Below, one piece after another: positions 18,371 through 45,439 of a stretch of DNA of 64,000 bases. The notes beneath the pieces were generated by a model that ran no database searches, had not been told where the DNA came from, and saw only the letters and a list, made by a program, of their open reading frames with translations. How positions within the stretch are numbered: the stretch's first letter is position 1; every line of letters begins with the position of its first letter. The translations under genes were made by a program, and so were the position numbers. Origin of the DNA: Paracoccaceae bacterium (GTDB lineage Bacteria; Pseudomonadota; Alphaproteobacteria; Rhodobacterales; Rhodobacteraceae). Location of the stretch: assembly GCA_033344815.1 (NCBI GenBank), contig JAWPMR010000001.1:482136-546135 (forward strand), given 5' to 3'.

Positions 18371-18735
18371 GATGTCTCCCTGACCGCCAAAGCGCAGGTG
18401 GCCAGCCTGTCCGCTGAAACATGCCTTTCGGTCATTAAACGTGCGCCGGGACCCGCTGCTGACAGCGCCGCGGCCTCTGCGACGGATCCAACGCCGCGCT
18501 CCGCAAGAGATTTCAGCGATTGTGTGAGCGTATTTTGCTGGGTGAGCATATCTGCAGGCACGGCCTTGATCGGCAGGTCGATCTCATCAGAAAACAAGCG
18601 AAACACTTCTGTGGTTGCTTTGTCATCCGACGTCGCAATCGCATCCGGGCGCGCAGCCACGCAAGCCCTATCAAAAGCGTCTTGCAAGCTGCCAAGGGTG
18701 GCGTCTTTCTTGAACCCAAATCCCGCAACGATCAT
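18367..18735 (-). CDS. cobE: CobE / CbiG C-terminal-like cobalamin biosynthesis protein
   Basis: 122 residues from ATG 18735; the open extension to 18777 would overlap cobL by 46 bases. It opens with [13 protein letters not shown] and contains [11 protein letters not shown] and a [15 protein letters not shown] segment, the CobE/CbiG-C pattern. CbiG-C homologues open the ring delta-lactone in the anaerobic pathway; the role of CobE in the aerobic route is less clear and may be intermediate binding. Overlaps cobL and cobM by ATGA at both ends. Confidence 0.88.
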
Positions 18736-26800: not shown

Positions 26801-27184
26801 ATCAAGGCGCGCGTCAACCCGACCGTCCGCTGGCAATACTGCCAATGCTATTCCCTTGCGCTTTGCCAATGTGCAAACCTGTTGCAAACCATAGGCCCAA
26901 TAAGGCACGCCACCGATCAAGCGGATCAGGATGCCTTTGGCCCCCTCAAGCGTCTGCTCGACATAGGTATCCACCGACAAGGGATGTTTGAGGGCCACCA
27001 GATTGGCCAGCCGTAAGGTGGGCATTTTGGCCACCGCTCCGCCCCCGCGTCGCCAGCCTTCCGCGAAAGCCCCAAGGTCGCTGTCCGAAAACGACAACAC
27101 CACCAGATCCGCAGTCGTCTGACCCAGATCCATTGGCGTCTCGGTTTCTTCCAACCCATGACTTTCGCGGAATACGACGTGCAT
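23891..27184 (-). CDS. cobN: Cobaltochelatase large subunit
   Basis: 1097 residues, usual for Rhodobacterales CobN (a little shorter than the ~1250-residue Pseudomonas form). The start MHVVFRESHGLEETETPMDLG is typical. Later segments VHIGAHGTLEWLPGKSVALS (metal-binding His/Glu region), FIVNDPGEAAQAKRRIGAV and GSATMRTAGEDFAMAL are CobN/ChlH hallmarks. With CobS and CobT, which are not in this window, it inserts Co(II) into hydrogenobyrinic acid diamide using ATP. It sits after cobW, which is thought to deliver cobalt. Confidence 0.95.
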   Translation of the reverse strand: MHVVFRESHGLEETETPMDLGQTTADLVVLSFSDSDLGAFAEGWRRGGGAVAKMPTLRLANLVALKHPLSVDTYVEQTLEGAKGILIRLIGGVPYWAYGLQQVCTLAKRKGIALAVLPADGRVDARLDEFSTLPVSTLRRLAHLCDTGGAIAAQAALAQLSLAAGLYAGPVSGSKVLPSVGAWTPEHGVTCPVLAQTNVSTPLIAITFYRSYLVAADLAPIAALFEAFRSRGYQVIGLFAPSLKAPQAATWLRRQIAHLKPAAIVNATAFSGKGADGSSPLDASNVPVFQVALATSTRKAWAGAERGLSPSDLAMHVVLPEVDGRIMGGVVSFKEPGLRDPDLEYSRFGHRPETARVAATADRVHGWLTLAETPARDRHIALVLSTYPGKDWNMGHAVGLDAPASAQAILQDLTEAGYDTTVPGSDLPQRLLARSQAWALSDYQKALENLPSALQQDLHDAWGPPENDPDIEDSAFHFSAIQCGKVMVALQPERGTPKNRGDEYHDLSRTPRHAYVAFYLWLQSQMDALVHIGAHGTLEWLPGKSVALSETCWPEVLTGALPVIYPFIVNDPGEAAQAKRRIGAVTLGHIPPPMRDSGTPEKLVRLEALLDEFSNADGLDPRRRDRLQEDIRLEAQALGVEDDLGLARAACSAEAITRIDRFVCDIKESQFGEGLHIWGRATQNQSGFETASSSTAEQRALLDALEGRRIAPGPSGSPYRGRRDVLPTGRNLYTTDPRSVPTRAAYAQGVKLAEELVRRQLQDAGDWPRGLIVDLWGSATMRTAGEDFAMALHLLGVRPIWDAGSERVSGIEVLPITDLDRPRIDVTLRVSGLFRDVFPTLSALFAQAVRALAARDEAPDWNPYVEGSDLARVYGPAPGSFGVGMSDAAQTFTAEGRKAAGEAWLKASAWALDGEKVEKHDQGIRDRVAQADTFVHAQDLPETDLLLAADYAAHEAGFAAAQAVTGGQSSLYHLDNTNPDRPRARALPEEIARVVQARAANPAWIKGMRAHGFRGAAEIAATLDHMAAFAHLAGAVSPHLFDLYHDATLGHEDTDHFLQDANPEAREAMVQRFGELHAAGLWQTRRNSILAGLEAAQ

Positions 27185-27190
27185 TGTGCG

Positions 27191-28249
27191 CTACTCTGCG
27201 GGCTCGATGGCTTTCACACCCAGCACCGATTTGATTGTCTCGGTCTTGATGTCGTCATGTTCTGCGATCACCACCAAACGCCCCTGACGCGCCTCGCCGG
27301 GCTGCCATGGTCGGTCATATTGGTGCCGCACGCGCGCCCCCACCGCCTGTACCAACAAACGCATCGGCTTACCCGCAACCGCCGCATAGCCTTTCACCCG
27401 AAGGGTATTATGCGCATTGGCCAATTCCTGCACGGCGCGCACCAAATCTTCTGGGTCGGATAGCTCTGGAATATCGACCACAATGCTCTCAAAGTCTTCA
27501 TGATCGTGGTCATGCGGGCCGTCGTGATGGCTGGGGCGTGCATCCATGTCGTCTTCTGCTGCGGCCTCCAACCCCAGAATAATACGCGGATCCACAACGC
27601 CCTCGGCCACTTCGACCACCGGCAATGGGCGGGGTACTTCGGCGGCGATGACAGCCTTGGCTTTTGCGATGCCCTCAGGACCCGCCAGATCGGGTTTGGT
27701 CAGCAATATAATGTCCGCACAGGAAATCTGATCCTCGAACACCTCAGACAAAGGCGTTTCGTGATCAATGCTTTCATCCGCTTCACGCTGGGCATCCACG
27801 GCGGCCACATTCGGCGCAAAACGCCCTGCCGCCACGGCCTCGGCGTCCGCCAATGCGATCACACCATCCACGGTGATTTTTGAACGGATATCGGGCCAGT
27901 CAAACGCCTTCAACAACGGTTTGGGCAAAGCAAGGCCAGAGGTTTCGATCAATATATGATCCGGGCGCGGTTCCAACGCCATCAGCGCCTCAATGGTTGG
28001 AATGAAATCATCCGCCACCGTGCAACAGATACATCCATTGGCCAGTTCCATAATGTTTTCCGCCGGGCAATCCGGGATTGCGCAGCTTTTGAGGATATCG
28101 CCATCCACGCCCACATCGCCAAATTCATTGACAACAATCGCCAGACGTTTGCCGCCCGGGTTCTGCATCAACTGGCGGATCAGCGTGGTCTTACCAGAGC
28201 CGAGAAAACCGGTGACGACGGTTACAGGGAGTTTTGCAAGATCAGTCAT
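27191..28249 (-). CDS. cobW: CobW, G3E-family GTPase (metallochaperone)
   Basis: 352 residues from ATG 28249; eight-base overlap with the DUF1636 gene. Walker A is GFLGSGKTTL; the CXCC metal site is GCICC in ELANGCICCTVADDF; ILIETSGLALP is the switch region. A His/Asp loop (SHHDGPHDHDHED, near residue 220) is a metal sensor or sink. The C-terminal domain follows (NTLRVKGYAAV). It is placed directly before cobN, consistent with loading Co(II) for chelation. Confidence 0.94.
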   Translation of the reverse strand: MTDLAKLPVTVVTGFLGSGKTTLIRQLMQNPGGKRLAIVVNEFGDVGVDGDILKSCAIPDCPAENIMELANGCICCTVADDFIPTIEALMALEPRPDHILIETSGLALPKPLLKAFDWPDIRSKITVDGVIALADAEAVAAGRFAPNVAAVDAQREADESIDHETPLSEVFEDQISCADIILLTKPDLAGPEGIAKAKAVIAAEVPRPLPVVEVAEGVVDPRIILGLEAAAEDDMDARPSHHDGPHDHDHEDFESIVVDIPELSDPEDLVRAVQELANAHNTLRVKGYAAVAGKPMRLLVQAVGARVRHQYDRPWQPGEARQGRLVVIAEHDDIKTETIKSVLGVKAIEPAE

Positions 28250-28640
28250 TTTGAATCTCCAGCGGCGGTATGCGCGCGATACAGTTGCGTTTGAAATGTT
28301 CAGGTCGTTCACGCCAAGGAATTAACCCATCCGTTGTGGCGTTGTAGCGTGCAGCGCCGTCCAGCAGAATGTCAGGATGCGACACTTCGTCGATGTTTCC
28401 GTAAATATAGGTCCAACGGTCCCCACCGCGCAGGGCAATCGTGCACCCGTGATTGCAGTTTTGCAGGCATTCCACCGCTTTAATCCGCACACCGGCGGGC
28501 ATTTCTTGTCCGGCCAGAGTATCAAACAAACGCTGGCCGGGGCGGCGTTCGTCTTCAGGAATTTCCATGCCACGCCTGCATTTCACGCAGACCAGTAATT
28601 CCGTTGTCTGACCGTCAAACGCGGTCGCCTCTGTCGTCAT
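28242..28640 (-). CDS. DUF1636 Cys-rich metal-binding protein
   Basis: 132 residues from ATG 28640 (another ATG lies at 28655, inside a hairpin). Five Cys in two groups: CVKC near the N-terminus and CLQNCNHGC in the middle, the pattern of a thioredoxin-like [2Fe-2S] or metal-binding fold. DUF1636 genes commonly precede cobW/cobN. This is the first gene after the second B12 riboswitch, so it is made when cobalamin is scarce. The exact task is unknown; handling cobalt or electrons for the CobG/CobN steps is an inference from position. Confidence 0.85.
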   Translation of the reverse strand: MTTEATAFDGQTTELLVCVKCRRGMEIPEDERRPGQRLFDTLAGQEMPAGVRIKAVECLQNCNHGCTIALRGGDRWTYIYGNIDEVSHPDILLDGAARYNATTDGLIPWRERPEHFKRNCIARIPPLEIQND

Positions 28641-28648
28641 AATATCCT

Positions 28649-28667
28649 GTCCCATCTGATATGGGAC
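28649..28667 (-). promoter_or_regulatory. Hairpin at the translation start of the B12 operon
   Basis: GTCCCAT (28649-28655) and ATGGGAC (28661-28667) form a 7-base stem eight bases before the chosen DUF1636 ATG. It is placed to be the expression platform of the riboswitch or to mask the ribosome site. Confidence 0.5.
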
Positions 28668-29000: not shown

Positions 29001-29909
29001 TCAGATGTCGGTATTGTGCCGAGCACTGGCGTTTTTGCCACGCCACAGGATGAACAATCCCGACACGACAATCAAACCGCAGCCTGCAAAAACCGTCATC
29101 TCCACCTGCTCTCCAAAGAGAACAACTCCAAAACCTATCCCAAACAGCAATCGTGTATAGCGAAAGGGAGTCACTGCGGACACGTCACCACTGCGCATTG
29201 CTTTCATCAGACTGGTATATGCCACCACACCCGCGCCGGTTGCCCCCAAGAGAATGAATGCGTCGAGCCCATTTGGGTGCACAAATGACGTCTGCGCCCA
29301 AAGGGAATACAATCCACCTGCAATGGTGACCGACAAAAATCCATAAAGCCCCAAAATGGCAGCGCTCAAGGACGCGGGTGCAGCGCGACTGGCAAGATCG
29401 CGACCAGCAAAACCCAACATGCCAATGACCGCCAAGACCGAGAGCATTGAAAAACTGTCCGATCCGGGACGGATGATCACCAGGACGCCGGCCATTCCGA
29501 TCAGAATGGCACACCATCTGCGCGGTCCGACATTTTCGCCAAAAAACCACGCGGCTCCCGCGACCACGACCAGAGGCGTCGCCTGCAAAATCACAGTGGC
29601 CGATGACAGGGGTGTTAAAGTGATGGCGAGTACAAAAAACAATCGCCCGATGATCTCAAAGAAAACCCGCAAGCGCATCGGGCGTGATATCACATCTTTC
29701 GTGAACAAAGGGTCTTTGTTCAGCAGGGACATGCCGGCAAAAAGGACGCTGCCCCCCAGTCCGAATATTACCAGGATCTGACCAACCGGAAGGTTCTGCG
29801 ATGCAGCCTTGATGAAAACGTCCTCAACGGCAAAGGCTGCCATGGCAAAAACCATCCACATGCTGCCGACCGCATTGGCGCGGGTGTCGGTGGCGATGTC
29901 CGGACGCAC
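29001..29909 (-). CDS. EamA/DMT-family transporter
   Basis: 302 residues with about ten hydrophobic helices in two repeats, as in the drug/metabolite transporter superfamily (EamA). The first repeat begins MVFAMAAFAVEDVFIKAAS; the second contains SLSAAILGLYGFLSVTIAGG. Substrate unknown. It lies between the B12 riboswitch region and the DUF2478 gene with room on both sides, so it is probably its own transcription unit. Placement beside B12 genes does not by itself imply cobalamin transport. Confidence 0.85.
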   Translation of the reverse strand: MRPDIATDTRANAVGSMWMVFAMAAFAVEDVFIKAASQNLPVGQILVIFGLGGSVLFAGMSLLNKDPLFTKDVISRPMRLRVFFEIIGRLFFVLAITLTPLSSATVILQATPLVVVAGAAWFFGENVGPRRWCAILIGMAGVLVIIRPGSDSFSMLSVLAVIGMLGFAGRDLASRAAPASLSAAILGLYGFLSVTIAGGLYSLWAQTSFVHPNGLDAFILLGATGAGVVAYTSLMKAMRSGDVSAVTPFRYTRLLFGIGFGVVLFGEQVEMTVFAGCGLIVVSGLFILWRGKNASARHNTDI

Positions 29910-30037
29910 TCAGTCTCCAATGTCAGTGAGGCCGTTAGGGCATTTGTTCAATGCCTGTCGCATGGAGGAATGTTTGAACTGCGTCAACGCAAAAGCAACG
30001 GTGGCGTGGAAATTCCTCGCGCTCGGGTCCGACAGTA

Positions 30038-30559
30038 CTAAGCGGTGGCAGTCACCGCGCGGCCTTGCTGGTCAAACCATTCCATCAAGGCTGTTTCTGT
30101 TGCATCCAGCGGCTGCGCCAAATCGCCGGTGAATTCGTCGAATGCAGAGAGGTTCAAGGCGTTCAATCCAACCAGAACCGGAACATCCAGACTGAGGGCT
30201 TCCGCAATCACCGGACGAAACCCTCGCCCGCCTGCCTCGTGCTTGCCGAACTTGTTGACGATGAGCAGGTCAGCGCCTTTTTGCAACTCTGTACTCACAA
30301 GCCCCACTGCGTTTTCCAGCGCGTCGGGATCCAATCGGCATCCCTTTGCGGCAGGGCCCAGATTTTGAGAAATCCGTATGATCGGTCCGCCTGGCATGAT
30401 TTTGACGTCCATGTCGCACAGACCGCTGCCGCAGGTTTCCGAATTCTCCTGCACCGCCCCGCACACTCGCAGGCCTTGCGCCAAAACACGGCGCGCAAAC
30501 CCGAAGAGCAACAGATCGGTATCGCCCTTTCCAGGCGCCATTGTATAAGCAATTCTCAT
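30038..30559 (-). CDS. DUF2478 nucleotide-binding protein (molybdenum-linked family)
   Basis: 173 residues from ATG 30559, 13 bases after the HEAT-repeat gene stops. It opens MRIAYTMAPGKGDTDLLLFGFA, a degenerate P-loop, and has ADLLIVNKFGKHEAGGRGFRP and DVPVLVGLN, the DUF2478 pattern. A Cys pair (ETCGSGLCDMD) may bind metal. Family members are often found next to molybdate transport or molybdoenzyme genes. Here it is last in the operon of the molybdopterin oxidoreductase, so a role in Mo/cofactor supply to that enzyme is a reasonable inference. Confidence 0.75.
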   Translation of the reverse strand: MRIAYTMAPGKGDTDLLLFGFARRVLAQGLRVCGAVQENSETCGSGLCDMDVKIMPGGPIIRISQNLGPAAKGCRLDPDALENAVGLVSTELQKGADLLIVNKFGKHEAGGRGFRPVIAEALSLDVPVLVGLNALNLSAFDEFTGDLAQPLDATETALMEWFDQQGRAVTATA

Positions 30560-30572
30560 ATTAGGACGCAGA

Positions 30573-32687
30573 TTAGGATAAATCTTGTGACGACGCCAGA
30601 GCTCGCAAAATGACAAGGGCGCGCCGATGGTTTGCGCCGCATTCCGCGAGCATTGAAAGCGCCTTTTGCAGAGCAGAACGGGATTGCCTTGCCAAGACCG
30701 CCAGCGTATCTGAACGCTCGGCCATGATCACCTGCACAACGGCCGCTTCGACCAGATCAGCCTTGCCGCAGTTCAGGATCCTCTGTGCCACATTCTGGCG
30801 CACCGAAACCGCGTTGTCTTTGATGTAATCCACCGCTTTGGCCGGCGGCAGGCTCAGAGCAGCTTCGGCGCGGATCAGGGCATCTTCGTCTTTTAATGCC
30901 GGCTCAAGGATGTCGCTGTCCGGGCACCGCGTGAGGACCCGTAAGGCAGACATTCGGATCAGCGGGTCATCTCCTGCAAATGCGGCGCGCGCCTTGTCGG
31001 TAATCTCGGGCGTCAGGTCCCGCCCCGAGAGCGCTTCCCACGCCCTGCGGCGCACCGTGTCATCCGGATCTTCAATCCGTGATATCATGGCCTCTGTCAG
31101 GGATGGCGCATCACAAGCTCTAAAGACCCGCATGGCATCAATTGCCAAAGACAGGGCCAGATCATCGGATCCTTCCACGGCTCGGCGTCTGGCGCGTTTT
31201 GCGCCAGACTCTTCGGGTGTTTCACCGGCTTGTGACTGCGGCGCGATCACGTTTCCATCCGACAAAATGGAGTCCAGAGTGCTTTGCCCCTCAAGCGCTG
31301 GCGTTTCGTCGCGCTCCATGATGTCGCCCTCGGGCGTGATCCATATCTTGCGCGGACCCGCGCCCTCTTTTGGCGTACCGGCGTCCGGACCGCTTTGCAG
31401 ACCACTTTCGTCAGGGTCTCTTTTCGGCATCGCCACCGCGCCGGCAATAAAGGCCGCCGCGAGGTCGAGCGCAGCTTCATCGCTGTCACTGCGCACCAAC
31501 AGAGTGGTCAAAAGCGTGGCGCGGACCTGACGCGCCGGGTTTTCCAACAGCTCGGCAAGCAAATCCGTCGATACACTCAGTTCGGGTGCCGCCAGGGCTT
31601 TTGATGCCGCCACCCGCACCTCAAGATCGCTTTGCCCAGTTTCCAGAATCTGAACCAGAGGGCCCACTGCGCGATCGGGGGCCAAATGCACCAACCTGTC
31701 GATTACCCCCATGGCCAGCTCAGGCGTACAGCGTGGCAGCCAGGACAACATGTTATCGACCAATGCCTCATGGAATTCCGGTTCAAGGGGAAAACTCAGA
31801 CATTCCAATGCTGCCGCCTTGACGGTATCACTGGGATCGCCAAGACAGGTTTGGGCCAGACCTAGAAAGGCGGATGATGCGCGTCGCAGAGCAGCCGCGC
31901 GCACCAACGCGCTTGCATCGCTTTGCGCAAGTGATTGAAGACCTGGATCATCTGCCGCCATCGCCTTGATCGCCAGCAATCGTAATTCGGCCTCGGGGGC
32001 TGCGAGAATCTCATCGAGCCGTAACATGAAATCCTCGGGGGCCGCGCGGGCCAATGCCGCCGCGGCGCGGCGCCGTGACGCCCCCGTGGTGAGATTGAAC
32101 ACTTCTATCAGGGTCGCAACCCCCACCGCGCCCATTTGCGAAAGCGCGTGAAAGACAGGCACGTCAAGCGACTGGCCAAACTCATCCATCAAAGCCGCTG
32201 TCATGTCATCAATGGCTTCTTCTGCGCCAATCTCCCCCAAAGCCCGGATCGCAGCCGTTTGAATGTCCAGCCATTCTTCCCAGTCGCTGCCTTCATCTTC
32301 CCAGGCGACCTGATCTTCGGATCGCGACCGTACCAGGGATCGCAACAGCGGAATGGCCTCCGGGGCACACAGATGCGACAAAGCGCTGATCGCGGCCAAT
32401 TTGACTTCGCGCACCGGATCATCTTTCAGAGAATGCAAAATGTCTGCGGTGTCACCACCACGTACCAGAGGGACCAATGCCTCCATGGCATCGCTGCGCA
32501 CATCCGGGTCAGGATCCAGCCGGGCGGTTAACAAGGCGTCGCGCACGCCTTCGATGTCCTGTGAAAGGACGGTCGGAAGCGCACAAATGGCGGCAGAGCG
32601 CAGCACCTCGTTTTGCGAGTTCAAAAATGGTGCGAACGGCGCAAGCGCCGCCTGCGCATCAGGGGCAGTCAGGGTATTCGTTTGCAT
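30573..32687 (-). CDS. HEAT-repeat protein of the Mo-oxidoreductase operon
   Basis: 704 residues, cytoplasmic (no signal peptide). It consists of many ~31-residue alpha-helical HEAT repeats with the DPDPDVRSDAMEALVPL and DDPVREVKLAAISALSHL type consensus, from residue ~20 to ~430, then an acidic, Pro/Gly-rich linker (~430-500), then more repeats (CPDSDILEPALKDEDALIRAEAALSL) to the end. GGAGAC precedes the ATG. It sits 59 bases after the catalytic subunit gene and just before DUF2478. HEAT scaffolds bind other proteins, so a dedicated chaperone or assembly platform for the molybdoenzyme before Tat export is plausible. No known name. Confidence 0.8.
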   Translation of the reverse strand: MQTNTLTAPDAQAALAPFAPFLNSQNEVLRSAAICALPTVLSQDIEGVRDALLTARLDPDPDVRSDAMEALVPLVRGGDTADILHSLKDDPVREVKLAAISALSHLCAPEAIPLLRSLVRSRSEDQVAWEDEGSDWEEWLDIQTAAIRALGEIGAEEAIDDMTAALMDEFGQSLDVPVFHALSQMGAVGVATLIEVFNLTTGASRRRAAAALARAAPEDFMLRLDEILAAPEAELRLLAIKAMAADDPGLQSLAQSDASALVRAAALRRASSAFLGLAQTCLGDPSDTVKAAALECLSFPLEPEFHEALVDNMLSWLPRCTPELAMGVIDRLVHLAPDRAVGPLVQILETGQSDLEVRVAASKALAAPELSVSTDLLAELLENPARQVRATLLTTLLVRSDSDEAALDLAAAFIAGAVAMPKRDPDESGLQSGPDAGTPKEGAGPRKIWITPEGDIMERDETPALEGQSTLDSILSDGNVIAPQSQAGETPEESGAKRARRRAVEGSDDLALSLAIDAMRVFRACDAPSLTEAMISRIEDPDDTVRRRAWEALSGRDLTPEITDKARAAFAGDDPLIRMSALRVLTRCPDSDILEPALKDEDALIRAEAALSLPPAKAVDYIKDNAVSVRQNVAQRILNCGKADLVEAAVVQVIMAERSDTLAVLARQSRSALQKALSMLAECGANHRRALVILRALASSQDLS

Positions 32688-32708
32688 AATGTCTCCGCAG
32701 ATCTCGCA

Positions 32709-32735
32709 CAGGCCCGACCTTTCTGATTGGGCCTG
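32709..32735 (-). promoter_or_regulatory. Hairpin between catalytic subunit and HEAT gene
   Basis: CAGGCCC (32709-32715) pairs with GGGCCTG (32729-32735), 12 bases past the catalytic subunit stop. There is no T-run, so it may act in mRNA processing or stability to lower expression of the two accessory genes rather than as a full terminator. Confidence 0.4.
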
Positions 32736-32746
32736 CGCATTCAGGT

Positions 32747-35422
32747 TCAGGCAATGTCACGGCGCGCAAAGGACATGGAACGGAACTGCGATTTATAGGG
32801 GCTATCGCCCATTTTCCGAACCTTGCCGACACCCATCTTGTAGTTGTAATTCCCGCTGATCCAATCAACGACCCGCCCGGCCAGCGCATTCGCGGGCTGC
32901 GCAGTATGCAGAAAATCCATATACCCAAGGTTTTCTTTCACTGCTGGGGTCACAATCGCCACGGCCGTGATGGAGGCCTTGGTCAGCTCGATATGACCGT
33001 TCTTGAGCAGGGACGCGAAATCGAAATCGCTGCCCTCCACGCCGACGATCGTATCGGTCTGCACCGGAATGCGATCTGAATAAATCTGAACGTAATCACC
33101 ACTCTCAATGCCGCGCGCTTCGGCCACCGAAGGGTGGATTTCGATCCAGTTTTCCGGCCAGCGCTGCACGATATAGGGGCGGCGGCGGTCATCATAGCCC
33201 GATTGCCAACGCTCGTTTATACGACCTGAAGAAATCCAGATCTCATCCTCGCGCGGTTTGAGCCATTCCCAATAGCTGGAAAACAGATCCCAAGGCGCTT
33301 TCTGAATGTTGCACTTGCCGGTCTGCGTGTTGAAATGCGTCAGTTTCTTGTTGAACACATTCGCGCCAATCGGCCCCTCTTCGGGTAACACACGGCCAAC
33401 GTCATGCAGGCGTTTAGTTTCCACCAAAGCACCATCTTTGTCCATCAAAACAGGGCCTTGAATACCGTTGGTTCCGAATTCACCCAACTTCTGGTGCAGC
33501 GTCTTGCCTTCACGGTCAGCCTTGACCTTGACCATGAAGAAATCCTTGCGCGAGCCGCGCGAATGCCGCGCGCCCTCTTCCAGCACCTCGTTTGAATCCT
33601 TCCAGTCAAACCCTTCAAAACCCATCTTCTTTGCAAGCTGCGCAATAATCCACCAATCGGGTTTCGCCTCGCCGGGCGCATCATAGAATTTCGGATAGAG
33701 ACGAATACGGCGCTCACCATTGGCGCGGGTGAATGTTTCCTCGCCCCACCCGGAGGCCGGAAACACGATATCCGCATAGCGCGCGCCAATCGGGTCCACC
33801 ATGTAGATGTCCTGGTTCCAAACCACCATGCCGCCTGAATCTGCACGCCGTTTCAACGTATCGATGATGTCCTTCTTCTCGAAACTCTGGACCTGATGCG
33901 GGTTGCGCGTCGTCAACTCGTCAAACTTGGCCTGCAGGCTTTGGGACCCACACATCGCCTGCACCCAGGTGGTGCCGATCACATGTGCCAGCCGCGTGTG
34001 ACCGCTCATCAGATACCGATCCGTGTCCATCGCGCGGCGCCGGCGCCCGGGCAGTTTTTCGGGCGATTTGTTGCGCGGATACCCGCCCCCGCGCAGACCC
34101 CCGCGCTGGTGACCCCCTGCCCGGCCAATGACCTGACCGGGACGCCCGCCACAGCCGGTAATGATGCCAAGCGCAGAAATCGCCTGCGTGTTGCCGGTGT
34201 TATTGGACCAATAGAAGCCCTTCTCGATCATGATCGAGGTCTTGGGTTTGGTGCCATCCTCGCGCGGTTTGGCCATCCATTCCGCTGCCGTATAGATTTT
34301 CTGTACGTCAATCTGGGCGATCTCAGCCGCTTTTTCCGGCTCGGCGTAATCCTGGCTCAACAGCCATTCTTTCCAATCCTCGAAACCGGCCGTCTGGAAC
34401 TTGCCCCAAGTCGTGCGCCACTGCCAAGGTGTGTTGCGTGTGCCCTGGCCGAAACCAGATGAGCTTTCCCATTTGTTGTTGACCCAGTCTTTGATCCAGT
34501 CGCCATCTTCCCAGCCGTTTTCGACAATTACCCGCGCGATGGCCAAGACCACAGGCAAATCCGTGCCCGGCTGGATGTCGATGACCATACCGCCGTTTTT
34601 CTCCGCAAAAGCGGTGCCGGAGGTGCGGCGCGGCAACAGGAAGATCGCCTTTTGCCCGCCTTGGATCGCGGGCATGATATAATCAGTGTATAGGATCGTC
34701 TTGGACTCGTAGGGGTCCGTGCCACACATCAGCAGCGTGTCGGCCTCTGCCCAATCATCGTAACTGGGACCGAAATTATCAAACCCTGCATCTCGGAAAC
34801 CGGGCGTCGAGGTCACATCAGAGGGCGTATCATGGAAGGTAAAATTCGCCGTGCGCACGTGGCGCAGCGCATATTTGGTAATGGCGTAAGTGTTTTCCAT
34901 ATAGCCATAGGAGAAGGTCTTCACGCCGTAGGCATTGGTCCCGTGCTTTTCGAGCACGTGGTTGCCGACCTCTGCTGCGATTTCCAGCGCGAACTCCCAT
35001 GTGACGGGCATCAATACGCCAAACATCCGCACCATAGGTGATTTCAAACGATCCCGCGTCGGCGTCTGCGGGTTATAGACCTTCTGGGCCAGCGCTCCGC
35101 CCCGGATCGAGGAGTTGCCCGAGTAATTGACAAAATCCGTGTCCTTATCAGGGATGATGACCACATGGTGCGGTTCCCCGTTGTGCAGCACAATGTTGTG
35201 TTGATTGGGCGCCACCCAAGCGCCCAAAGGGGCGACGGGGAAATCCTCGCCAAAGGCATTGTCTTCGGCTTTGGGACCGCCGACCTTACCGCCTGCAACA
35301 GGCCAGCGGTAAACTTTGTACCCGCAGGCAACAATGCAATAATCACAAGCGGTTGAAATCACGTCGGCATCTGGTGGCGGCAGCGGAACCGAGGATTCAG
35401 GGACATAATATGGCGTGGACAT
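32747..35422 (-). CDS. idrA: Iodate reductase-like molybdopterin subunit (AioA/IdrA clade)
   Basis: 891 residues, DMSO-reductase superfamily. C26-x2-C29-x3-C33 (CDYCIVACGY) with Ser at ~101-105 (SGNSS) is the 3Fe-4S site of the arsenite oxidase group. RAGGHQ at 434-439 keeps the Arg/His pair that lines the AioA pocket. No Cys/SeCys ligand is evident at the Mo site, as in AioA. There is no signal peptide; export would be with the Tat-bearing Rieske partner. AioA proteins are about 825 residues; this is longer, and the two neighbouring di-heme peroxidases are the mark of the iodate reductase cluster. I therefore call IdrA over AioA. No ars or aioX genes are present. Confidence 0.75.
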   Translation of the reverse strand: MSTPYYVPESSVPLPPPDADVISTACDYCIVACGYKVYRWPVAGGKVGGPKAEDNAFGEDFPVAPLGAWVAPNQHNIVLHNGEPHHVVIIPDKDTDFVNYSGNSSIRGGALAQKVYNPQTPTRDRLKSPMVRMFGVLMPVTWEFALEIAAEVGNHVLEKHGTNAYGVKTFSYGYMENTYAITKYALRHVRTANFTFHDTPSDVTSTPGFRDAGFDNFGPSYDDWAEADTLLMCGTDPYESKTILYTDYIMPAIQGGQKAIFLLPRRTSGTAFAEKNGGMVIDIQPGTDLPVVLAIARVIVENGWEDGDWIKDWVNNKWESSSGFGQGTRNTPWQWRTTWGKFQTAGFEDWKEWLLSQDYAEPEKAAEIAQIDVQKIYTAAEWMAKPREDGTKPKTSIMIEKGFYWSNNTGNTQAISALGIITGCGGRPGQVIGRAGGHQRGGLRGGGYPRNKSPEKLPGRRRRAMDTDRYLMSGHTRLAHVIGTTWVQAMCGSQSLQAKFDELTTRNPHQVQSFEKKDIIDTLKRRADSGGMVVWNQDIYMVDPIGARYADIVFPASGWGEETFTRANGERRIRLYPKFYDAPGEAKPDWWIIAQLAKKMGFEGFDWKDSNEVLEEGARHSRGSRKDFFMVKVKADREGKTLHQKLGEFGTNGIQGPVLMDKDGALVETKRLHDVGRVLPEEGPIGANVFNKKLTHFNTQTGKCNIQKAPWDLFSSYWEWLKPREDEIWISSGRINERWQSGYDDRRRPYIVQRWPENWIEIHPSVAEARGIESGDYVQIYSDRIPVQTDTIVGVEGSDFDFASLLKNGHIELTKASITAVAIVTPAVKENLGYMDFLHTAQPANALAGRVVDWISGNYNYKMGVGKVRKMGDSPYKSQFRSMSFARRDIA

Positions 35423-35433
35423 GGGTGTGCTCC

Positions 35434-36021
35434 TCAGCCTTGCAGATTGTCGAAACGGCCATAAATCAGGCCAAACATGCCGACGGCGTAGATATCGTCA
35501 CCATCCAGTTCGAGCAAAACCTGCGGCAGCGATTGATAGGCCTGTCCGGCGATGAAAATACCGTGGCGCGTCAGATCAAAGGTTGTCAGGTGCAGCGGAC
35601 ATGGACCCAGCGCCTTGTCAGCCGCCTGATAGGTGCCCTGCAGCGGGCCGCCCTGATGAGTGCAGGTGTAGTTGAAGGCCACCACGTCCTTGTCCGGCCC
35701 GAGGCCCCCACCCGCTTCCCGACCCAGTTTGACCAGAATGGATTCTGCATATTCGCCTTCATCTGGGTATTCGAAATCGAGTGGTTCATCGACGCTGAGA
35801 TCGCTGAGTTTCGCGATCAGTTTACGGGGGTATGTGGAGACCACGGCCGGTGTTTGCGCCTGTGGCATGCCCGGCACGCCGACCATCACGACGCTTGTTG
35901 CGATGCCGCTGGTCAGCAGGAATTCGCGCCGGCTCATCAGGCACTTACGCGTGCCGGCCTTCTTGGCTTCGCCGTTGGTGCCGTTGATCGCGGCACGGAT
36001 CCTGGGATCAACCTGGTTCAT
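35434..36021 (-). CDS. idrB: Tat-exported Rieske [2Fe-2S] subunit (AioB/IdrB-like)
   Basis: 195 residues from ATG 36021. Tat signal: SRREFLL at 30-36 followed by a hydrophobic segment (TSGIATSVVMVGVPG). Rieske ligands: C120-T-H122 and C141-P-L-H144. The two extra Cys that form a disulfide in bc1-type Rieske proteins are missing (CTHQGG, CPLH). It begins 13 bases after the first peroxidase gene stops and ends 11 bases before the catalytic subunit gene. It should pass electrons between a cytochrome c pool and the Mo subunit in the periplasm and carry that subunit across by Tat. Confidence 0.82.
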   Translation of the reverse strand: MNQVDPRIRAAINGTNGEAKKAGTRKCLMSRREFLLTSGIATSVVMVGVPGMPQAQTPAVVSTYPRKLIAKLSDLSVDEPLDFEYPDEGEYAESILVKLGREAGGGLGPDKDVVAFNYTCTHQGGPLQGTYQAADKALGPCPLHLTTFDLTRHGIFIAGQAYQSLPQVLLELDGDDIYAVGMFGLIYGRFDNLQG

Positions 36022-36034
36022 GACTGTTTCCTCA

Positions 36035-37162
36035 TCAATTTTGTGGGGCTGGCAGGGGCTGCATTTCTGGCAAATCCGGCTCCTCGACCAGGATCTCATC
36101 TCCGCTCAGGCTTTCGAGAAAGGCAACCAGGTCGTCGACCTGCGCCTCTTCAAGGCCCAAGGGCTGGATCAACTCGGACTTATTCGCGCTGAACTCATTC
36201 TCGCCGCCGCCCTCATTGTAGAACACGACCACATCGCGCAATGTCTCCAACATGCCGTTATGCATGTAGGGATAGGTGTATTTGGTATACCGCAGGCTCG
36301 GCACGCGAAATTTGCCTTTGTCAGCTTTCTGTTTGGTGCGGAAATAAAGACCGGGGTCATCCTTGGTTTCACGGTACATTTCCTCTGTCGAGCCCTTGGC
36401 ATAAAGCTCGAACCGAAAGGTGATCTGTGCCAGCGCATCGTCTTCCCACCCGTCATAGGGCGGCACACCGATGTTGTAATAGGCCTCATTGGACAACAGC
36501 GCTCCACTGTGGCAGGCGGTACAATTTGCCGCGCCCGTGAATAGATCCAGCCCGCGTTTTTGTGCCTCACTCAGCGCGGCATCATCCCCACGCATGTAAG
36601 TGTCAAATGGCGTATCAGTTTGCACGATCGAGCGTTGATAGGCCGCCAGCGCCATATAGGCGTGGCGCACGAGCGGGTATTTATCGCCGTAGACCTCGCG
36701 GAACGCGGCGCGGTATTCCGGCACAAAGGCCAGACGCGCCTCCATCATATCATCCTCGCCGTTACCCGCCACGCCCCCGCGCGCAGCCGACCTTGCCTGA
36801 TGTTCCAGCGATCCTGACGCCCCGGCCCAGAACAGCTTTTTGTAGTAAGCTGAGTTCACGATTGTCTGGCTGTTGCGCCAATGGGTGGTGCCGGGATAGC
36901 CAAAACTGATCTTGTCCTGCACGGCCCAACCCGCTTCGGGGCGGTGGCAAGAGGCGCAGGACATCTCACCATTGCCTGACAGGATCGGGTCAAAGAACAG
37001 TTTTTCCCCTAACGCGATTTTTGCAGGCGTTTGCGGGTTGTCCGCCGGGGCTGTTGGGGGGTCCAATGCGGCCAGTTCCGAGGGGCGATGCCCATCCGCC
37101 AGAGCCGCGCCGGAAATGCAGGTGGCCAGAAAAAGCGCGGAGATCCGAGTTTTATGTGTCAT
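36035..37162 (-). CDS. idrP1: Di-heme cytochrome c peroxidase / MauG family (IdrP-like, copy 1)
   Basis: 375 residues from ATG 37162 with a Sec signal (ALFLATCISGAALA). Two c-type heme sites: CASCH (69-73) and CTACH (214-218). YPYMHNGMLETL near the C-terminus is the conserved YMHNG/MxTL block of the family. It follows the second peroxidase gene by 11 bases. In the iodate reductase system two such peroxidases are thought to remove hydrogen peroxide made at the Mo enzyme. Assignment of the P1 and P2 labels to the two copies is arbitrary here. Confidence 0.8.
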   Translation of the reverse strand: MTHKTRISALFLATCISGAALADGHRPSELAALDPPTAPADNPQTPAKIALGEKLFFDPILSGNGEMSCASCHRPEAGWAVQDKISFGYPGTTHWRNSQTIVNSAYYKKLFWAGASGSLEHQARSAARGGVAGNGEDDMMEARLAFVPEYRAAFREVYGDKYPLVRHAYMALAAYQRSIVQTDTPFDTYMRGDDAALSEAQKRGLDLFTGAANCTACHSGALLSNEAYYNIGVPPYDGWEDDALAQITFRFELYAKGSTEEMYRETKDDPGLYFRTKQKADKGKFRVPSLRYTKYTYPYMHNGMLETLRDVVVFYNEGGGENEFSANKSELIQPLGLEEAQVDDLVAFLESLSGDEILVEEPDLPEMQPLPAPQN

Positions 37163-37173
37163 GATGACCTCCA

Positions 37174-38250
37174 TCAGTTGGGTTGCTCACGCCAGTTTTC
37201 GATCACTTCGTAGTCAAAATCGTCTTCGCGCCACACGTAGGCATCGGTATCGAAACTCTCGCCAGACAGGCTTTCCAGAAACGCGATCAGATCGGCTTTT
37301 TCGCTGGGCACCAGGCCGATGGGTTTCAGGCGCGGATCTTTCAGAGTGTCATTGCCACCGCCCGCATCATAGAAATCAACCACATCGCCGAGCGTCGCCA
37401 TCGAGCCGTTGTGCATGTAAGGTGCGGTCCATGTCAGTTCGCGCAGCGAGGGGGTGAGGAAAGTCCGCTTGGTGTCGGAACTATGGGTCCGGATATAGGC
37501 CCCCAGATCCTCACGCAGGTTCATATAATTCTCAACGCCCATGAATTTGGCATAGGTGACAAAGGCGGAATGGCGCATGGGATCCGCCCAGATATCTGGG
37601 CTTGTTGCCACACCCGTATTGTGCGGCTGGTCATCAGTGAAACGCGATCCGGAATGGCAGGCGATGCACCCGCCCTTGCCCTCAAAGATCCCCTGCCCGC
37701 GCGTTGCGGCCGCCGACATTTCGCCGGTGTCAAACGGCGCATTGCGCGACTGGATCGTCTTCATGAAATCCATCAACGCATTGCGAGCGCCGCCATTGGA
37801 AGGCTCCGACATGCCAGCGGCAGCGAACATTTCCACATAGATCGGATCCTGTTTCATGCGTTCCTGCATGATCCGCATGTCCATGTTCATCAGATAGGTT
37901 TCGGTGATCATCTCACGTGCGACATCGTTCAGGTTGGTCCCCAAACGACCATCATGCATCCAGGCGTCACGAAATCCGACATTCGCCAGGGTTGGCGCGT
38001 TTCTGAAATGACCCGCTCCGGTGTAGGCCTGTGACAGCGCCTCGCCGTCGGTAAACGCCTTGTCGGGTTGATGGCAGCTAGAGCAGGACAGGGATGTGTC
38101 GCCCGACAGGCGCGTATCATAAAACATGCGCTTGCCCAACTCGGCGCGCGCGGCGTCCACCTCTATGGCGGGGTCTGGTGTGACATCCTGTGCGTTTCCC
38201 GCACCCGCCCCCAAAACCAGCACGCAAACCGCTTGCAGTGTTCGTTTCAT
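37174..38250 (-). CDS. idrP2: Di-heme cytochrome c peroxidase / MauG family (IdrP-like, copy 2)
   Basis: 358 residues from ATG 38250, preceded by AAGGAGAGCT. Sec signal ends at GNAQD. Heme sites CSSCH (56-60) and CIACH (195-199); APYMHNGSMATL near the C-terminus. Related to the neighbouring copy but clearly diverged (different spacing and loops), not a recent duplicate. First gene of the six-gene operon idrP2-idrP1-idrB-idrA-HEAT-DUF2478. Periplasmic; electrons would come from cytochrome c. Confidence 0.8.
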   Translation of the reverse strand: MKRTLQAVCVLVLGAGAGNAQDVTPDPAIEVDAARAELGKRMFYDTRLSGDTSLSCSSCHQPDKAFTDGEALSQAYTGAGHFRNAPTLANVGFRDAWMHDGRLGTNLNDVAREMITETYLMNMDMRIMQERMKQDPIYVEMFAAAGMSEPSNGGARNALMDFMKTIQSRNAPFDTGEMSAAATRGQGIFEGKGGCIACHSGSRFTDDQPHNTGVATSPDIWADPMRHSAFVTYAKFMGVENYMNLREDLGAYIRTHSSDTKRTFLTPSLRELTWTAPYMHNGSMATLGDVVDFYDAGGGNDTLKDPRLKPIGLVPSEKADLIAFLESLSGESFDTDAYVWREDDFDYEVIENWREQPN

Positions 38251-38573
38251 CGAGCTCTCCTTCTTACTGGGCATGTGTGGCCTAGCGACTGTGCAGCGAC
38301 TGGATACGTGCCAGCCGCCATCATGCGGCGCACCAAAGCACCGACTTGAAAAAAGCTTGAAAGTTCAGACAGATATTGCCTTCACTTTTTATTTTTGAAT
38401 TGGGTATTTGCGAAATGAACCCGCCACTGTGGCGAGAGCCAACCGTTCCCCTGAGCAAAGGTTAACAACCAAAACCGGGAAAGATGTTGCGCGCAGGATT
38501 GCGGTTTGTAACAAATTGCGACGATTTGTTGCGATGACCCGCTGCTTTTCGCAAACGATCCGCACTCAGGAAA
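38251..38573. promoter_or_regulatory. Regulatory region upstream of the idr-like operon
   Basis: 323 bases between the operon start and the end of the sensor-kinase gene on the same strand. It contains a perfect palindrome CGCCACTGTGGCG (38422-38434) and, nearer the kinase gene, four copies of TTGCG starting at 38487, 38499, 38516 and 38529. An AT-rich stretch (around 38370-38400) could hold a promoter. The repeats are candidate sites for the OmpR-type regulator encoded next door. No gene is seen here. Confidence 0.45.
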
Positions 38574-40775
38574 TCAATTCAATAAGATACGTATTTGCTG
38601 CGCAAGTGTTGCAGGTTGTACTGGTTTGTCGATCATCACGGGAGCCGGTCCCGGAACTGTAACCTTGCGCGGTTTGTAAGCAGAGCAATAAATCACCGGG
38701 ATGTTTTGGTGTAACGCGCGCACCGCCCGCACCAGTTCTTCCCCGCTCAATCCCGGCATGACCATATCGGATATCACCAAATCAAACCGTTTTGGGTCTG
38801 CTCGAAACCTTTCCAGCGCCGTCAACGGCGAGGAAAATGCCTCGACCCTATAACCAAGCCGCGTCAGAAGACGGCGAAACGTGGCAAGGACCTCGGTTTC
38901 GTCATCCACAAGCAATATACGCTCGCTCCCCCGGGGCGTTGAATCGTCTGCAGAGACCGCGCTTTGATCTTCTGCCACAGCGCCCGGCAGAATGATCGAA
39001 AAACAGCTACCTGCGCCAAGGTCGCTGGTGAAAGAAATTTCGCCGCCCATCTCGTTGACCAGGCCGTAAACGACAGAAAGCCCCAGCCCCGAGCTTTTAC
39101 CCAACGGTTTGGTCGTGAAAAACGGCTCAAACAAATGCCGTTGTGTTTCGGAGGACATGCCGGGCCCATCATCTTTTACCGTCAAACAGATCCATCCGTC
39201 CGCCCGTTCTGCCGCGTCCTTGGGGGCACTGCACGGGGCCACAGACAGATCAATCCGTCCCTCGGCCCCTTCCATGGCTTCGGCTGCATTTCGGCACAGG
39301 TTCATCACAATCTGGTGTAGATGGGTCTGATCCCCGCGCACAAAATGCGGCTCCCCCTTGGGGATGTATTCAATTGTGATCATCGGCGGCGTGGACGCTT
39401 TTAGAAGCCCCGTCACCTCCTCAATGATTGTGCCAAGATTCACCGCACGCATCTCACTGGGCTCGCGGCGCGCAAATGTCAGCAATTCGCGCACGAGACT
39501 CTGGGCGCGGCGCGCGGCGATATCAATCTGGGCAATCTCGCCGGCCAGATCGCTGCCCTCGGAGGCATCCAGCGACGCCAGATGGGCCGACCCGACGATG
39601 GTCGTCAGAATATTGTTGAAATCATGCGCGACCCCGCCAGCCAATTGTCCGACAGCCTCGAGCTTTTGGGCGCGCACCACCTGATCATGGGCTTGCCGCT
39701 TTTCGGTGATGTCTTCGCCGATTGCGATGTAATTCTGAATGCCGCCTTCGGGCGACACCAACGGCAGAATAGTAGTATCCGCCCAATAGTTCGTGCCATC
39801 CTTCTTGCGGTTCCGAAATATGCCGTGCCAGGCTTCGCCCTTGGCCAGCCCAACGCGAATGTCACGATATACATGGTCTTCCGTGTCACCGGATTGCAAG
39901 AACGCCGGAGTTTGCCCTTTCACATCCTCCAGCGCCCAGCCCGTCAATTCAGCAAACTTGCTGTTTACATATTGAATGCGGGCCTCGGTATCCGTGATGA
40001 TAATCGTCGCCGGACTTTGCTCGACAGCTGTGGCCAGACGCCCTTCAGACGCTTCCAACCTTTTGCGTTCAGACAGCTCTTCAGCCAAATCCGCCACCGC
40101 ATGCCGCAAATCACGAAATAATAAGAGCAAAAGCCATCCCACGACCATTGCAGCCATCACAAGCGCGGCAATTGACAGAAATCCGATCCAGATCAGCTGC
40201 TGTCCCTGCCCCACCGCAGCCAGCAGTCGTCGCGTACTGCTGGCCTGCAAACCTGCCCATATCCTTTCCAGATTGGCCAAACCCGCGATGGCCGCCTGAT
40301 CGTCGACACGAACAAGTGCGTCGGTCGTTTCAGCCGACCACGCGGCCTCGGCAGCGCGAATGGCAATCGGCAGCTTTCGGGCATATTCATCGATGGTGCT
40401 TTCAATGGACTGAAGGGCGTCCTTTTCCGCGCTCGATAACTCGAGGTTGCGAAACCGGGATAAAATGGCGTCGAGTTCCGAGAGTTGTCTTTCCGTAATC
40501 TCCAGATACACCGGATCCTGGCGCAGCACGAAATTCTTGTAGTTGTGGATCACACCGCCATAGCCCAAAAGCTCGCGCACTTCGCTGAGCAGGATGCCTT
40601 TGCGCTCCGCCCCTTCCGAATATTCAAGCCAGCTTTGACGTATGTCATTGAACTGTGCCTGCGTCAGAACACCCAGTGCGCCGCCCAGTAAAACAGTCAC
40701 CACAACAAGCGCCATCGCAGACAAGGCCGCCCTGAGCGGGTGTCGCATCGAGACGTTTGCTGCGGATTTGGTCAT
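38574..40775 (-). CDS. Hybrid PAS sensor histidine kinase
   Basis: 733 residues from ATG 40775 (a GTG 11 codons earlier is possible). Two membrane helices (~16-38 and ~195-220) enclose a ~155-residue, mainly helical periplasmic sensor. Then a PAS domain (~250-360: IIITDTEARIQYVNSKFAELTGW), HisKA with His384 in LAGGVAHDFNNIL, HATPase_c (NLCRNAAEAM, VKDDGPGM, SSGLGLSVVYG) and a C-terminal receiver (ILLVDDETEV, acceptor Asp in VISDMVMPG). No Hpt domain follows. It is divergent from the response regulator gene (78-base gap) and upstream of the idr-like operon on the same strand, so it probably controls that operon. Confidence 0.9.
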   Translation of the reverse strand: MTKSAANVSMRHPLRAALSAMALVVVTVLLGGALGVLTQAQFNDIRQSWLEYSEGAERKGILLSEVRELLGYGGVIHNYKNFVLRQDPVYLEITERQLSELDAILSRFRNLELSSAEKDALQSIESTIDEYARKLPIAIRAAEAAWSAETTDALVRVDDQAAIAGLANLERIWAGLQASSTRRLLAAVGQGQQLIWIGFLSIAALVMAAMVVGWLLLLLFRDLRHAVADLAEELSERKRLEASEGRLATAVEQSPATIIITDTEARIQYVNSKFAELTGWALEDVKGQTPAFLQSGDTEDHVYRDIRVGLAKGEAWHGIFRNRKKDGTNYWADTTILPLVSPEGGIQNYIAIGEDITEKRQAHDQVVRAQKLEAVGQLAGGVAHDFNNILTTIVGSAHLASLDASEGSDLAGEIAQIDIAARRAQSLVRELLTFARREPSEMRAVNLGTIIEEVTGLLKASTPPMITIEYIPKGEPHFVRGDQTHLHQIVMNLCRNAAEAMEGAEGRIDLSVAPCSAPKDAAERADGWICLTVKDDGPGMSSETQRHLFEPFFTTKPLGKSSGLGLSVVYGLVNEMGGEISFTSDLGAGSCFSIILPGAVAEDQSAVSADDSTPRGSERILLVDDETEVLATFRRLLTRLGYRVEAFSSPLTALERFRADPKRFDLVISDMVMPGLSGEELVRAVRALHQNIPVIYCSAYKPRKVTVPGPAPVMIDKPVQPATLAQQIRILLN

Positions 40776-40853
40776 GCCGACAGCCTGTCGCGAGTTGCGG
40801 TGCACCACAAGTTAAAATACGGTTAGCGCGCAGGGTGCGGGAGTGCGACAGAC

Positions 40854-41561
40854 ATGGAACAGAAGATTCTGGTTGTTGATGACGACCAGCAGGTGACATC
40901 TTTTTTGGACCGGTTTCTTACCCGCCACGGTTACAGGGCCGCGACCGCGTCAACGGCAGCCGAACTGTTCAAAATCCTCGAGACGGAACAGTTCGATCTG
41001 ATCGTTCTGGATCTGATCCTGCCGGATGAGGACGGATTTGACGTCGCAAAACGCATTCGCGGTGACACGGACACGCCCCTGATCATGCTCACCGCGCGCG
41101 ATGAGGTGTTTGACCGTATCGTTGGGTTGGAACTGGGGGCGGATGACTATGTGACCAAACCCTATGAGCCGCGGGAATTGCTGGCGCGGATCCGCTCTGT
41201 CATGCGGCGTTACAACACTGCACATCCGCGGGGCGGCACCGCGACAAATGTACTGCGCTTTGACAATCTGGAAATTGACCTGATCCGCTCGGTTGTGCGC
41301 AACATCAGCGATCAAAAGGAACTGGGGCTGACAAGCACGGAATTTGCGCTTCTGCGGGCGCTTGCGGATGCTCAGGGAAACGTTCTGAGCCGCGAACAGA
41401 TCCTGGCCAGCGTATATGGTAATTCCGTGCAGATCACGGATCGGGCAATAGATGCCCATATGGTGCGCTTGCGAAAAAAGCTGGGCGGCGCCAGCCAAAG
41501 TGACGATCTGATCCGCACCGTTCATGGGGTTGGCTACAAGCTGGCGGCTCTTGTGGTGTGA
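40854..41561 (+). CDS. OmpR-family response regulator
   Basis: 235 residues. Receiver domain: acidic DDD at 9-11, acceptor Asp53 (FDLIVLDLILPD), Lys102 (YVTKPYEP). C-terminal winged helix (LTSTEFALLRALADAQGNVLSREQIL, VRLRKKLG, IRTVHGVGYKL). It is the presumed partner of the divergent kinase. The kinase has its own receiver but no Hpt, so either direct transfer to this regulator or a separate Hpt is needed. Likely target: the idr-like operon. Confidence 0.92.
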   Translation: MEQKILVVDDDQQVTSFLDRFLTRHGYRAATASTAAELFKILETEQFDLIVLDLILPDEDGFDVAKRIRGDTDTPLIMLTARDEVFDRIVGLELGADDYVTKPYEPRELLARIRSVMRRYNTAHPRGGTATNVLRFDNLEIDLIRSVVRNISDQKELGLTSTEFALLRALADAQGNVLSREQILASVYGNSVQITDRAIDAHMVRLRKKLGGASQSDDLIRTVHGVGYKLAALVV

Positions 41562-41622
41562 ATATTTGCATGGATGCGCCCATCTTGCGCGCCAAGCCTG
41601 ATCCTTGTGAGAAAAACGCCTT

Positions 41623-41650
41623 ATTCTGGGTTTACGTTTCCACCCAGAAT
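41623..41650. promoter_or_regulatory. Inverted repeat between regulator and LLM oxidoreductase genes
   Basis: ATTCTGGGT and ACCCAGAAT form a 9-base stem with a 10-base loop, about 60 bases past the regulator stop. No T-run follows, so it may be a weak terminator or an operator for the next gene. Confidence 0.4.
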
Positions 41651-41731
41651 TGAATTGGCGTAAATGAAACGTTGCGTTAACCTTTCCGGAGCCGAGCGCA
41701 ATCTGCCTTGGCCCAAAGGGAGGAAGACCGA

Positions 41732-45377: not shown

Positions 45378-45439
45378 TCGCAACTCCAGTATCCTCCAAA
45401 ACATTTGAATCACGGGCGAAAAGCCATGTCGATAAGGGG

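Follow-up and report, generated by a model that had tools for sequence, protein, structure and literature searches.

A 64,000-bp stretch of the genome of a Paracoccaceae bacterium (GenBank assembly GCA_033344815.1, contig JAWPMR010000001.1, forward-strand positions 482,136 to 546,135; hereafter the window) carries, on its minus strand, a gene cluster that is very probably an idrABP1P2 iodate reductase operon of the alphaproteobacterial type, borne on a horizontally moving cassette. The genome is a single contig of 5.08 Mb, and the host is grouped within the genus Roseobacter by the genome collection. A reading of the window made from its letters alone, called the sequence-only reading below, had described six tightly spaced genes on one strand, and all six open reading frames (ORFs) were found on the minus strand between 30038 and 38250, separated by gaps of 16, 59, 11, 16 and -1 nt with the start codons adopted.

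The identities proposed for the six products agreed with Pfam. The molybdopterin catalytic subunit, IdrA (891 aa, 99.8 kDa; 32747-35422), scored 116 bits against Molybdopterin and 117 bits against Rieske_3, which is its 3Fe-4S domain, and the sequence CDYCIVACGY lies within a C-x2-C-x3-C-x70-S motif. Upstream of it is the gene for the Rieske [2Fe-2S] subunit, IdrB (35434-36021; Rieske, 24 bits), which has the twin-arginine translocation (Tat) motif SRREFL and the cluster motif CxHx18Cx2H. The two IdrP proteins belong to the di-heme cytochrome c peroxidase family and contain two CxxCH motifs apiece: CASCH and CTACH in the one adjoining idrB (36035-37174, likely start 37162; CCP_MauG, 146 bits), and CSSCH and CIACH in the product of the operon's first gene (37174-38274, likely start 38250; CCP_MauG, 122 bits). 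Downstream of idrA are genes for a HEAT-repeat protein (30573-32687; HEAT_2, 82 bits), which we propose to be an IdrAB assembly factor, and a DUF2478 protein (30038-30616, likely start near 30559; PF10649, 169 bits). Only one such large subunit was found genome-wide; six other matches were partial and weak and are presumably other molybdopterin enzymes.

Enzyme class of the molybdopterin locus

The sequence-only reading assigned the cluster to idrABP1P2 rather than to the arsenite oxidase genes aioAB, and the phylogeny, the family score of the large subunit, the Rieske linker and the two peroxidase genes preceding idrB all bear this out. A maximum likelihood tree, built by a quick method, contained 43 Idr-type rows including the window and 16 AioA-type rows, and the split between the two sets received a Shimodaira-Hasegawa-like approximate likelihood ratio (SH-aLRT) support of 100. 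Typing of the rows as Idr or AioA relied on how closely they resemble the window protein, supplemented by gene order where that was read, so that the tree shows a clean split and not independent labels. For this tree the near-copies among 80 related loci from named records were thinned to 35; L055, L073 and L095 were omitted as partial, three plasmid loci were retained, and L098-L102 were excluded together with the window's own copy, L113. On the Idr side, Azonexus, Thiothrix and two further genomes form one deep branch, and the window IdrA falls in the other, among alphaproteobacteria and adjoining the Roseobacter of locus L068. The AioA controls, which include Pseudorhizobium banfieldiae NT-26 (with aioX and aioR beside aioA) and Thermus thermophilus HB8, are separate from it. 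In the comparison with AioA that the earlier reading had proposed, the large subunit lies outside AioA; as a point against the assignment, the rows include no named sequence from a phenotype-tested iodate reducer. A second such point is a warning from the tree tool that the long branches of the Azonexus group and AioA meet.

Gene order is strongly conserved among the related loci. Among the 80, every locus with enough sequence has idrB ahead of idrA (77 of 77) and both peroxidases ahead of it as well (69 of 69, counting loci with at least 3.5 kb upstream), which argues that the arrangement is not due to chance.

The locus might alternatively encode an AioAB arsenite oxidase accompanied by two extra cytochrome genes. 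Both subunits exceed the NCBIfam cut-offs for TIGR02693 (418.6 bits against a cut-off of 359) and TIGR02694, models named 'arsenate reductase (azurin)', so the earlier expectation that automated pipelines would mislabel the locus was borne out; the record of an Azonexus relative carries the same label. The TIGR02693 scores are bimodal, however. Of 398 genomes drawn from the phylum, 14 matched; nine scored 1072-1310 bits and the other five 404-437 bits, and the window's own score in that draw, 415.6, lies within the lower group. AioA also provides the nearest solved structures, and both systems belong to one superfamily, follow a two-subunit plan and share a related [3Fe-4S] motif, but the window IdrA is only 27.0% identical to AioA of NT-26 and 31.0% identical to that of HB8. 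The IdrA Fe-S motif does not discriminate between the two, being present in 11 of the 16 AioA-type rows and missing from one of the 90 Idr-type rows. The linker in the Rieske subunit does: counted on unthinned rows, with near-copies and the window's own copy among the Idr-type, 88 of the 90 Idr-type rows have x18 (the other two have x19 and x20), against x15 in 14 and x13 in two of the 16 AioA-type rows.

Residues of the AioA pocket, whose numbers we take to be His195, Glu203, Arg419 and His423, were compared by alignment. Several are common to both enzymes, since those matching His195, Arg419 and His423 are conserved in the window IdrA, but the position of Glu203 is occupied by Ser205 (Ala in Vibrio, Asp in Azonexus and Thiothrix). 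Furthermore, the AioA sequence HQEG is replaced by HQRG in 42 of the 43 Idr rows and by HQCG in Azonexus, and this change from Glu to Arg may suit an anionic substrate better than neutral arsenite. The absence of arsenic genes noted by the sequence-only reading held for IdrB and the 42 of 57 listed window ORFs (at least 110 aa) that were scanned with Pfam, the other 15 being unscanned; by comparison, four of seven plasmid AioA controls have aioX/aioR or ars genes as neighbors, and no peroxidase genes were seen in the stretches covered of the NT-26 and HB8 AioAB loci. On the tree, the range of TIGR02693 scores, the Rieske linker and the pocket residues we rejected an arsenite oxidase, to which we attach next to no credence, in favor of an iodate reductase.

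Hybrid histidine kinase, a proposed sensor, and response regulator

The six genes do not make up the whole locus, which the sequence-only reading had ended at 38250. Upstream of the operon, a 299-bp intergenic stretch (38275-38573), which is presumed to be the promoter region, is followed by the gene for a hybrid histidine kinase on the minus strand (38574-40808) with a helical N-terminal sensor region and PAS, HisKA, HATPase and receiver domains. Divergent from it, on the plus strand, is an OmpR/PhoB-type response regulator (40854-41561; Response_reg, 102 bits; Trans_reg_C, 83 bits). Both genes belong to the unit, which thus contains eight genes (30038-41561), for the DUF2478 protein, the HEAT-repeat protein, IdrA, IdrB, the two IdrP, the kinase and the regulator.

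Within the genus the kinase (E ≤1e-100) was present in all four genomes with idrA and in none of 15 without it. We also surveyed the family by way of 295 genomes, sampled at close to one for each genus, scoring as a rule the three best candidates in each, so that a distant HEAT copy might escape notice. IdrA was found in 15 of the 295, or 16 counting G457, in which the contig is cut inside idrA. The kinase was present in 12 of these 16 and in none of the 279 others (Fisher 2.5e-18, kinship uncorrected), and in nine of the 12 it lay no more than 3.4 kb from idrA. The other deep IdrA type, 51% identical, occurs in two genomes of the same family (G588, locus L161; G604, locus L160) together with matching kinase and regulator genes, as a mixed island. 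The occurrence of the pair with both deep types implies that it tracks function and not merely one lineage. Among the 80 loci, 62 have 8.5 kb of upstream sequence and 30 of those hold both kinase and regulator; a related regulator is near idrA in each of the 30 kinase-holding loci, and in the Ruegeria loci with both genes the regulator is placed after the HEAT gene.

The sensor region, placed within residues 34-228 of the kinase, is predicted to be a long helical bundle (mean pLDDT, the predicted local distance difference test score, 92.6), and the motif GxGGxIHxxKNxVLR within it is invariant over 24 kinase proteins. It has no sequence relative in the PDB (best E 1.3) and in Pfam matched only 4HB_MCP_1, below threshold. 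No close paralogue of the kinase was found in the genome, the next match having an E value of 0.04. A helical bundle is also found in NarQ, a nitrate sensor with a four-helix periplasmic bundle, to which the sensor region shows a weak fold match (E 0.13, template modeling score 0.56); unlike NarQ, the kinase combines its invariant motif with the PAS and receiver domains of a hybrid protein. An island-type two-component system has been proposed as an iodate sensor (PMC8801600), and our proposal is that the kinase of the window senses iodate.

Several observations weigh against a general link of the kinase with iodate reduction. Because descent and transfer connect the idr-positive loci, the Fisher values overstate independence. 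In two family genomes (G021 and G504) 8-9 kb separate the kinase from idrA, and in a third (G671) the kinase is on another contig; by the threshold used it is missing from 32 of the 62 loci with 8.5 kb upstream, although in one locus below that threshold (L087) it is present in broken frames. A divergent Crp/FNR-type gene occupies its place in four of five kinase-less loci examined (not in L026), so that idr does not depend on the kinase in every locus. The fold matches of the sensor region are weak (best E 0.026), and include chemoreceptor domains as well as NarQ.

HEAT-repeat and DUF2478 proteins

Directly 3' of idrA, a HEAT gene was present in 72 of the 72 loci, among the 80, with at least 1.5 kb of downstream sequence. 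A profile built from 28 HEAT proteins found the family in 13 of the 295 family genomes, these being 12 idr-positive genomes and G457 with its cut contig, and in none without idrA (13 of 16 against 0 of 279; Fisher 3.6e-20, again uncorrected for kinship). Three idr-positive genomes lack it: in G528 the contig breaks off within idrA, and G588 and G604 have the other IdrA type. The sequence of the protein is much less conserved than that of its neighbor, with a median identity to the window of 36.7% (22 loci aligned over half the length) against 82.8% for IdrA (32 loci). Seventeen positions are invariant in the 28 sequences, among them Trp129, Trp136 and Trp139. The AlphaFold2 model is helical (mean pLDDT 86), and by eye the N-terminus has no visible signal peptide. 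A fold search for a more specific role was uninformative, as the 50 matches listed were generic solenoids such as the PP2A scaffold, importins and SF3b. In the draft genome holding locus L149 (G557:C18:93119-95215), a single TGA lies inside the HEAT frame.

The position of the gene, its linkage to idrA and its fold class lead us to prefer the reading that the HEAT protein acts as an IdrAB assembly factor before Tat export. It may instead be a partner of the regulator, although the assembly role is preferred. Against a universal requirement for it, the loci of Vibrio, Azonexus and Thiothrix have no HEAT gene after idrA, and neither do G588 and G604.

The DUF2478 gene of the unit is the sole copy in the genome. 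Its product has a weak match to an NTPase model in NCBIfam (19.4 bits against a cut-off of 156), and a likely but unproven role is in molybdenum cofactor supply. A DUF2478 gene is found downstream in nine of 63 loci with 5 kb of downstream sequence, and is directly 3' of idrA in G588. At the idr locus of Roseibium album (L047:2392-5864), the opposite strand next to idr carries moaA, a moaB-like gene, a gene weakly matching cupredoxin, the DUF2478 gene and one for a Crp/FNR-type regulator.

Mobility and boundaries of the unit

Eighteen kb of the window was used to query 19 genomes of the genus, four of which contain idrA. One congener without it (G004) matches the window on the left as far as 29900 and on the right from 41646 onward. 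There the two matches are approximately 150 bp apart, and genes for EamA and luciferase-like proteins are divergent neighbors. The stretch absent from this empty site, 29901-41646, is taken as the mobile unit. A second congener (G014) has all eight genes at the same site as the window. Two others (G003 and G013) lack DUF2478 but have the remaining seven genes, regulator through HEAT, each in a different context; the flanks compared, of 2.5 to 6.4 kb each, show no similarity to one another or to the window, so that in four congeners the unit occupies three unrelated genomic places. These contexts, and the presence of idr in only four of the 19 genomes, are the grounds on which insertion rather than loss is argued for this site, although not proven. 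It counts against insertion that the empty site was seen in only one of the 15 congeners lacking idr.

In the comparison with G004, homology ends near the flanking start codons with no clean target duplication. Terminal repeats sought within 29700-41900 were short and none was convincing, no tRNA gene was found within the window, and the GC content of the unit (0.574) is not distinctive beside that to the left (0.585) and near right (0.553). In G013, a fragment of a Resolvase N-terminal domain is found immediately beyond the HEAT gene (L144:17412-17867). In the window, a transposase (DUF772 and DDE_Tnp_1_6) in two overlapping frames at 44221-45413, approximately 3 kb to the right of the unit, is possibly a broken insertion element.

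The kinase, regulator, HEAT and DUF2478 genes might alternatively be chance passengers of a mobile operon. They diverge much faster than idrA, with median identities of 36.7-53.6% against 82.8%, and both the many kinase-less loci and the scarcity of DUF2478, undetected in the cassettes of G003 and G013, would fit such an origin. It is hard to reconcile with a HEAT gene after idrA in every locus with sufficient sequence, with HEAT and kinase genes never found without idrA across the family survey, with a kinase and regulator accompanying two IdrA types approximately 50% identical, or with a regulator-to-HEAT unit intact in three unrelated contexts. We consider a passenger origin unlikely.

Directly to the left of the unit is a run of cobalamin synthesis genes (14604-28655) encoding CbiM, several tetrapyrrole methylases, a CobB/CobQ-like protein, CbiG and DUF1636; the names CobN and CobW in this run were assigned by eye. 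To the right, two genes for MscS-type mechanosensitive channels lie in tandem at 51113-54321.

Relation to known systems and proposed function

The four core genes and their order are those of the idrABP1P2 islands of Denitromonas sp. IR-12, Pseudomonas sp. SCT and Azoarcus sp. DN11 (PMC8692401, PMC10149662). Shared features are a Tat-signal IdrB, two di-heme peroxidases, the cofactor motifs and mobility between genomes. In such operons a Sec signal is expected on IdrP and no signal peptide on IdrA; judged by eye from the N-termini, the window IdrA appears to be likewise unsignalled. The motifs printed for DN11, namely CX2CX3CX70S in IdrA, CXHX18CX2H in IdrB and two CX2CH in IdrP (PMC10149662), match those of the window, including the Tat motif of IdrB and the two CX2CH of each IdrP. 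The accessory genes differ. Where the window pairs a hybrid kinase with a regulator of the OmpR type and adds HEAT and DUF2478 genes, DN11 has an upstream sigma-54 regulator and an AtoS-like kinase, and SCT has a c-type cytochrome and molybdenum cofactor genes nearby (both PMC10149662). The Azonexus locus L009, whose IdrA is 50% identical to that of the window, has moaA, a c-type cytochrome and a sigma-54 regulator whose gene is preceded by one for an ATP-binding protein.

Closer counterparts are found among marine alphaproteobacteria. Roseovarius azorensis, Notoacmeibacter marinus and Aliiroseovarius sediminilitoris have idrABP1P2 as the window does, and the IdrA of R. azorensis (WP_093034476.1), at 99.4 kDa, is close in mass to that of the window (PMC11445184). 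An Aliiroseovarius metagenome-assembled genome encodes an IdrA 86% identical to the window's, with a HEAT gene downstream. HEAT and kinase genes are not mentioned for the three strains in the text covered of PMC11445184. In open-licence papers, neighborhood figures and supplements aside, we found no description of a linkage of the kinase pair or the HEAT gene to alphaproteobacterial idr; idr gene neighborhoods are drawn in Figure 5 of PMC8692401, according to its legend.

In the published model, cytochrome c passes electrons to IdrAB, iodate is reduced to hypoiodous acid, disproportionation of which gives iodide, and the peroxidases act on stray peroxide; deletion of idrA in Denitromonas abolished growth on iodate (PMC8692401). 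By analogy, the window would encode a periplasmic IdrAB in which the molybdenum subunit, with its [3Fe-4S] cluster, is carried across the membrane by its Tat-exported Rieske partner and receives electrons from the cytochrome c pool. Iodate would be reduced to hypoiodous acid, which would then disproportionate to iodide and iodate, while the two di-heme peroxidases would clear stray peroxide. The kinase would detect periplasmic iodate or its product and act through the OmpR-type regulator to induce the operon. In the cytoplasm, the HEAT solenoid may aid cofactor loading or folding of IdrAB ahead of Tat export, and DUF2478 may aid molybdenum cofactor supply. The host strain would, judging from its genes, be able to reduce iodate, and the likely use is as an electron sink at low oxygen, not for anaerobic growth, as proposed for R. 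azorensis.

The physiological evidence comes from those marine aerobic strains, which in static culture reduced 2 mM iodate nearly completely yet do not grow anaerobically on iodate, for which the authors suggest an electron sink (PMC11445184). That they lack such growth could also mean that an IdrA-type enzyme has another oxyanion, for example bromate or chlorate, as its main substrate, or serves as a general electron valve, with iodate secondary. Activity has been demonstrated in few strains, the confirmed respirers known to one study fall in a single small clade (PMC8801600), and the window branch is apart from the Azonexus type. A point against the iodate reductase reading as a whole is that a crude extract of R. 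azorensis showed no significant Idr activity, which was seen only as a band in an activity gel, and that the band from the active gel contained 24 proteins (PMC11445184). In favor of iodate, IdrA was the best-covered protein of that iodate-reducing band, idrA of R. azorensis was induced from 0.1 uM iodate, and seawater contains 0.4-0.5 uM inorganic iodine, mainly as iodate and iodide (PMC11445184). Another main substrate or a valve role seems to us quite improbable, and iodate remains the preferred substrate.

For the Alphaproteobacteria more widely, iodate reductase genes may form a transferable unit in which five genes are the minimum (idrP-idrP-idrB-idrA-HEAT) and a dedicated kinase and regulator often bring the number to seven; in it the HEAT protein would be an IdrAB-specific assembly factor and the kinase a true iodate sensor enabling sub-micromolar induction; we regard this broader picture as about evenly balanced between right and wrong. 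Within it, the kinase is a candidate for the iodate sensor behind the induction at 0.1 uM reported in R. azorensis, and the HEAT gene a candidate maturation factor. The score range and the Rieske linker could serve to separate IdrA from AioA and to amend entries labelled 'arsenate reductase (azurin)', the Azonexus record being one.

The sequence-only reading had pointed to a tie between this marine bacterium and iodine cycling. Because idr in marine aerobic alphaproteobacteria, with iodate reduction shown, was published by Kine et al. in 2024 (PMC11445184), the ecological point is not new. Surface-seawater iodide reacts with ozone, and this has been called the primary sink for ozone in the atmosphere (PMC11445184); for that reason the identity of iodide-making organisms matters. 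A Roseobacter with a complete genome and an intact idr unit extends the list of likely iodide makers.

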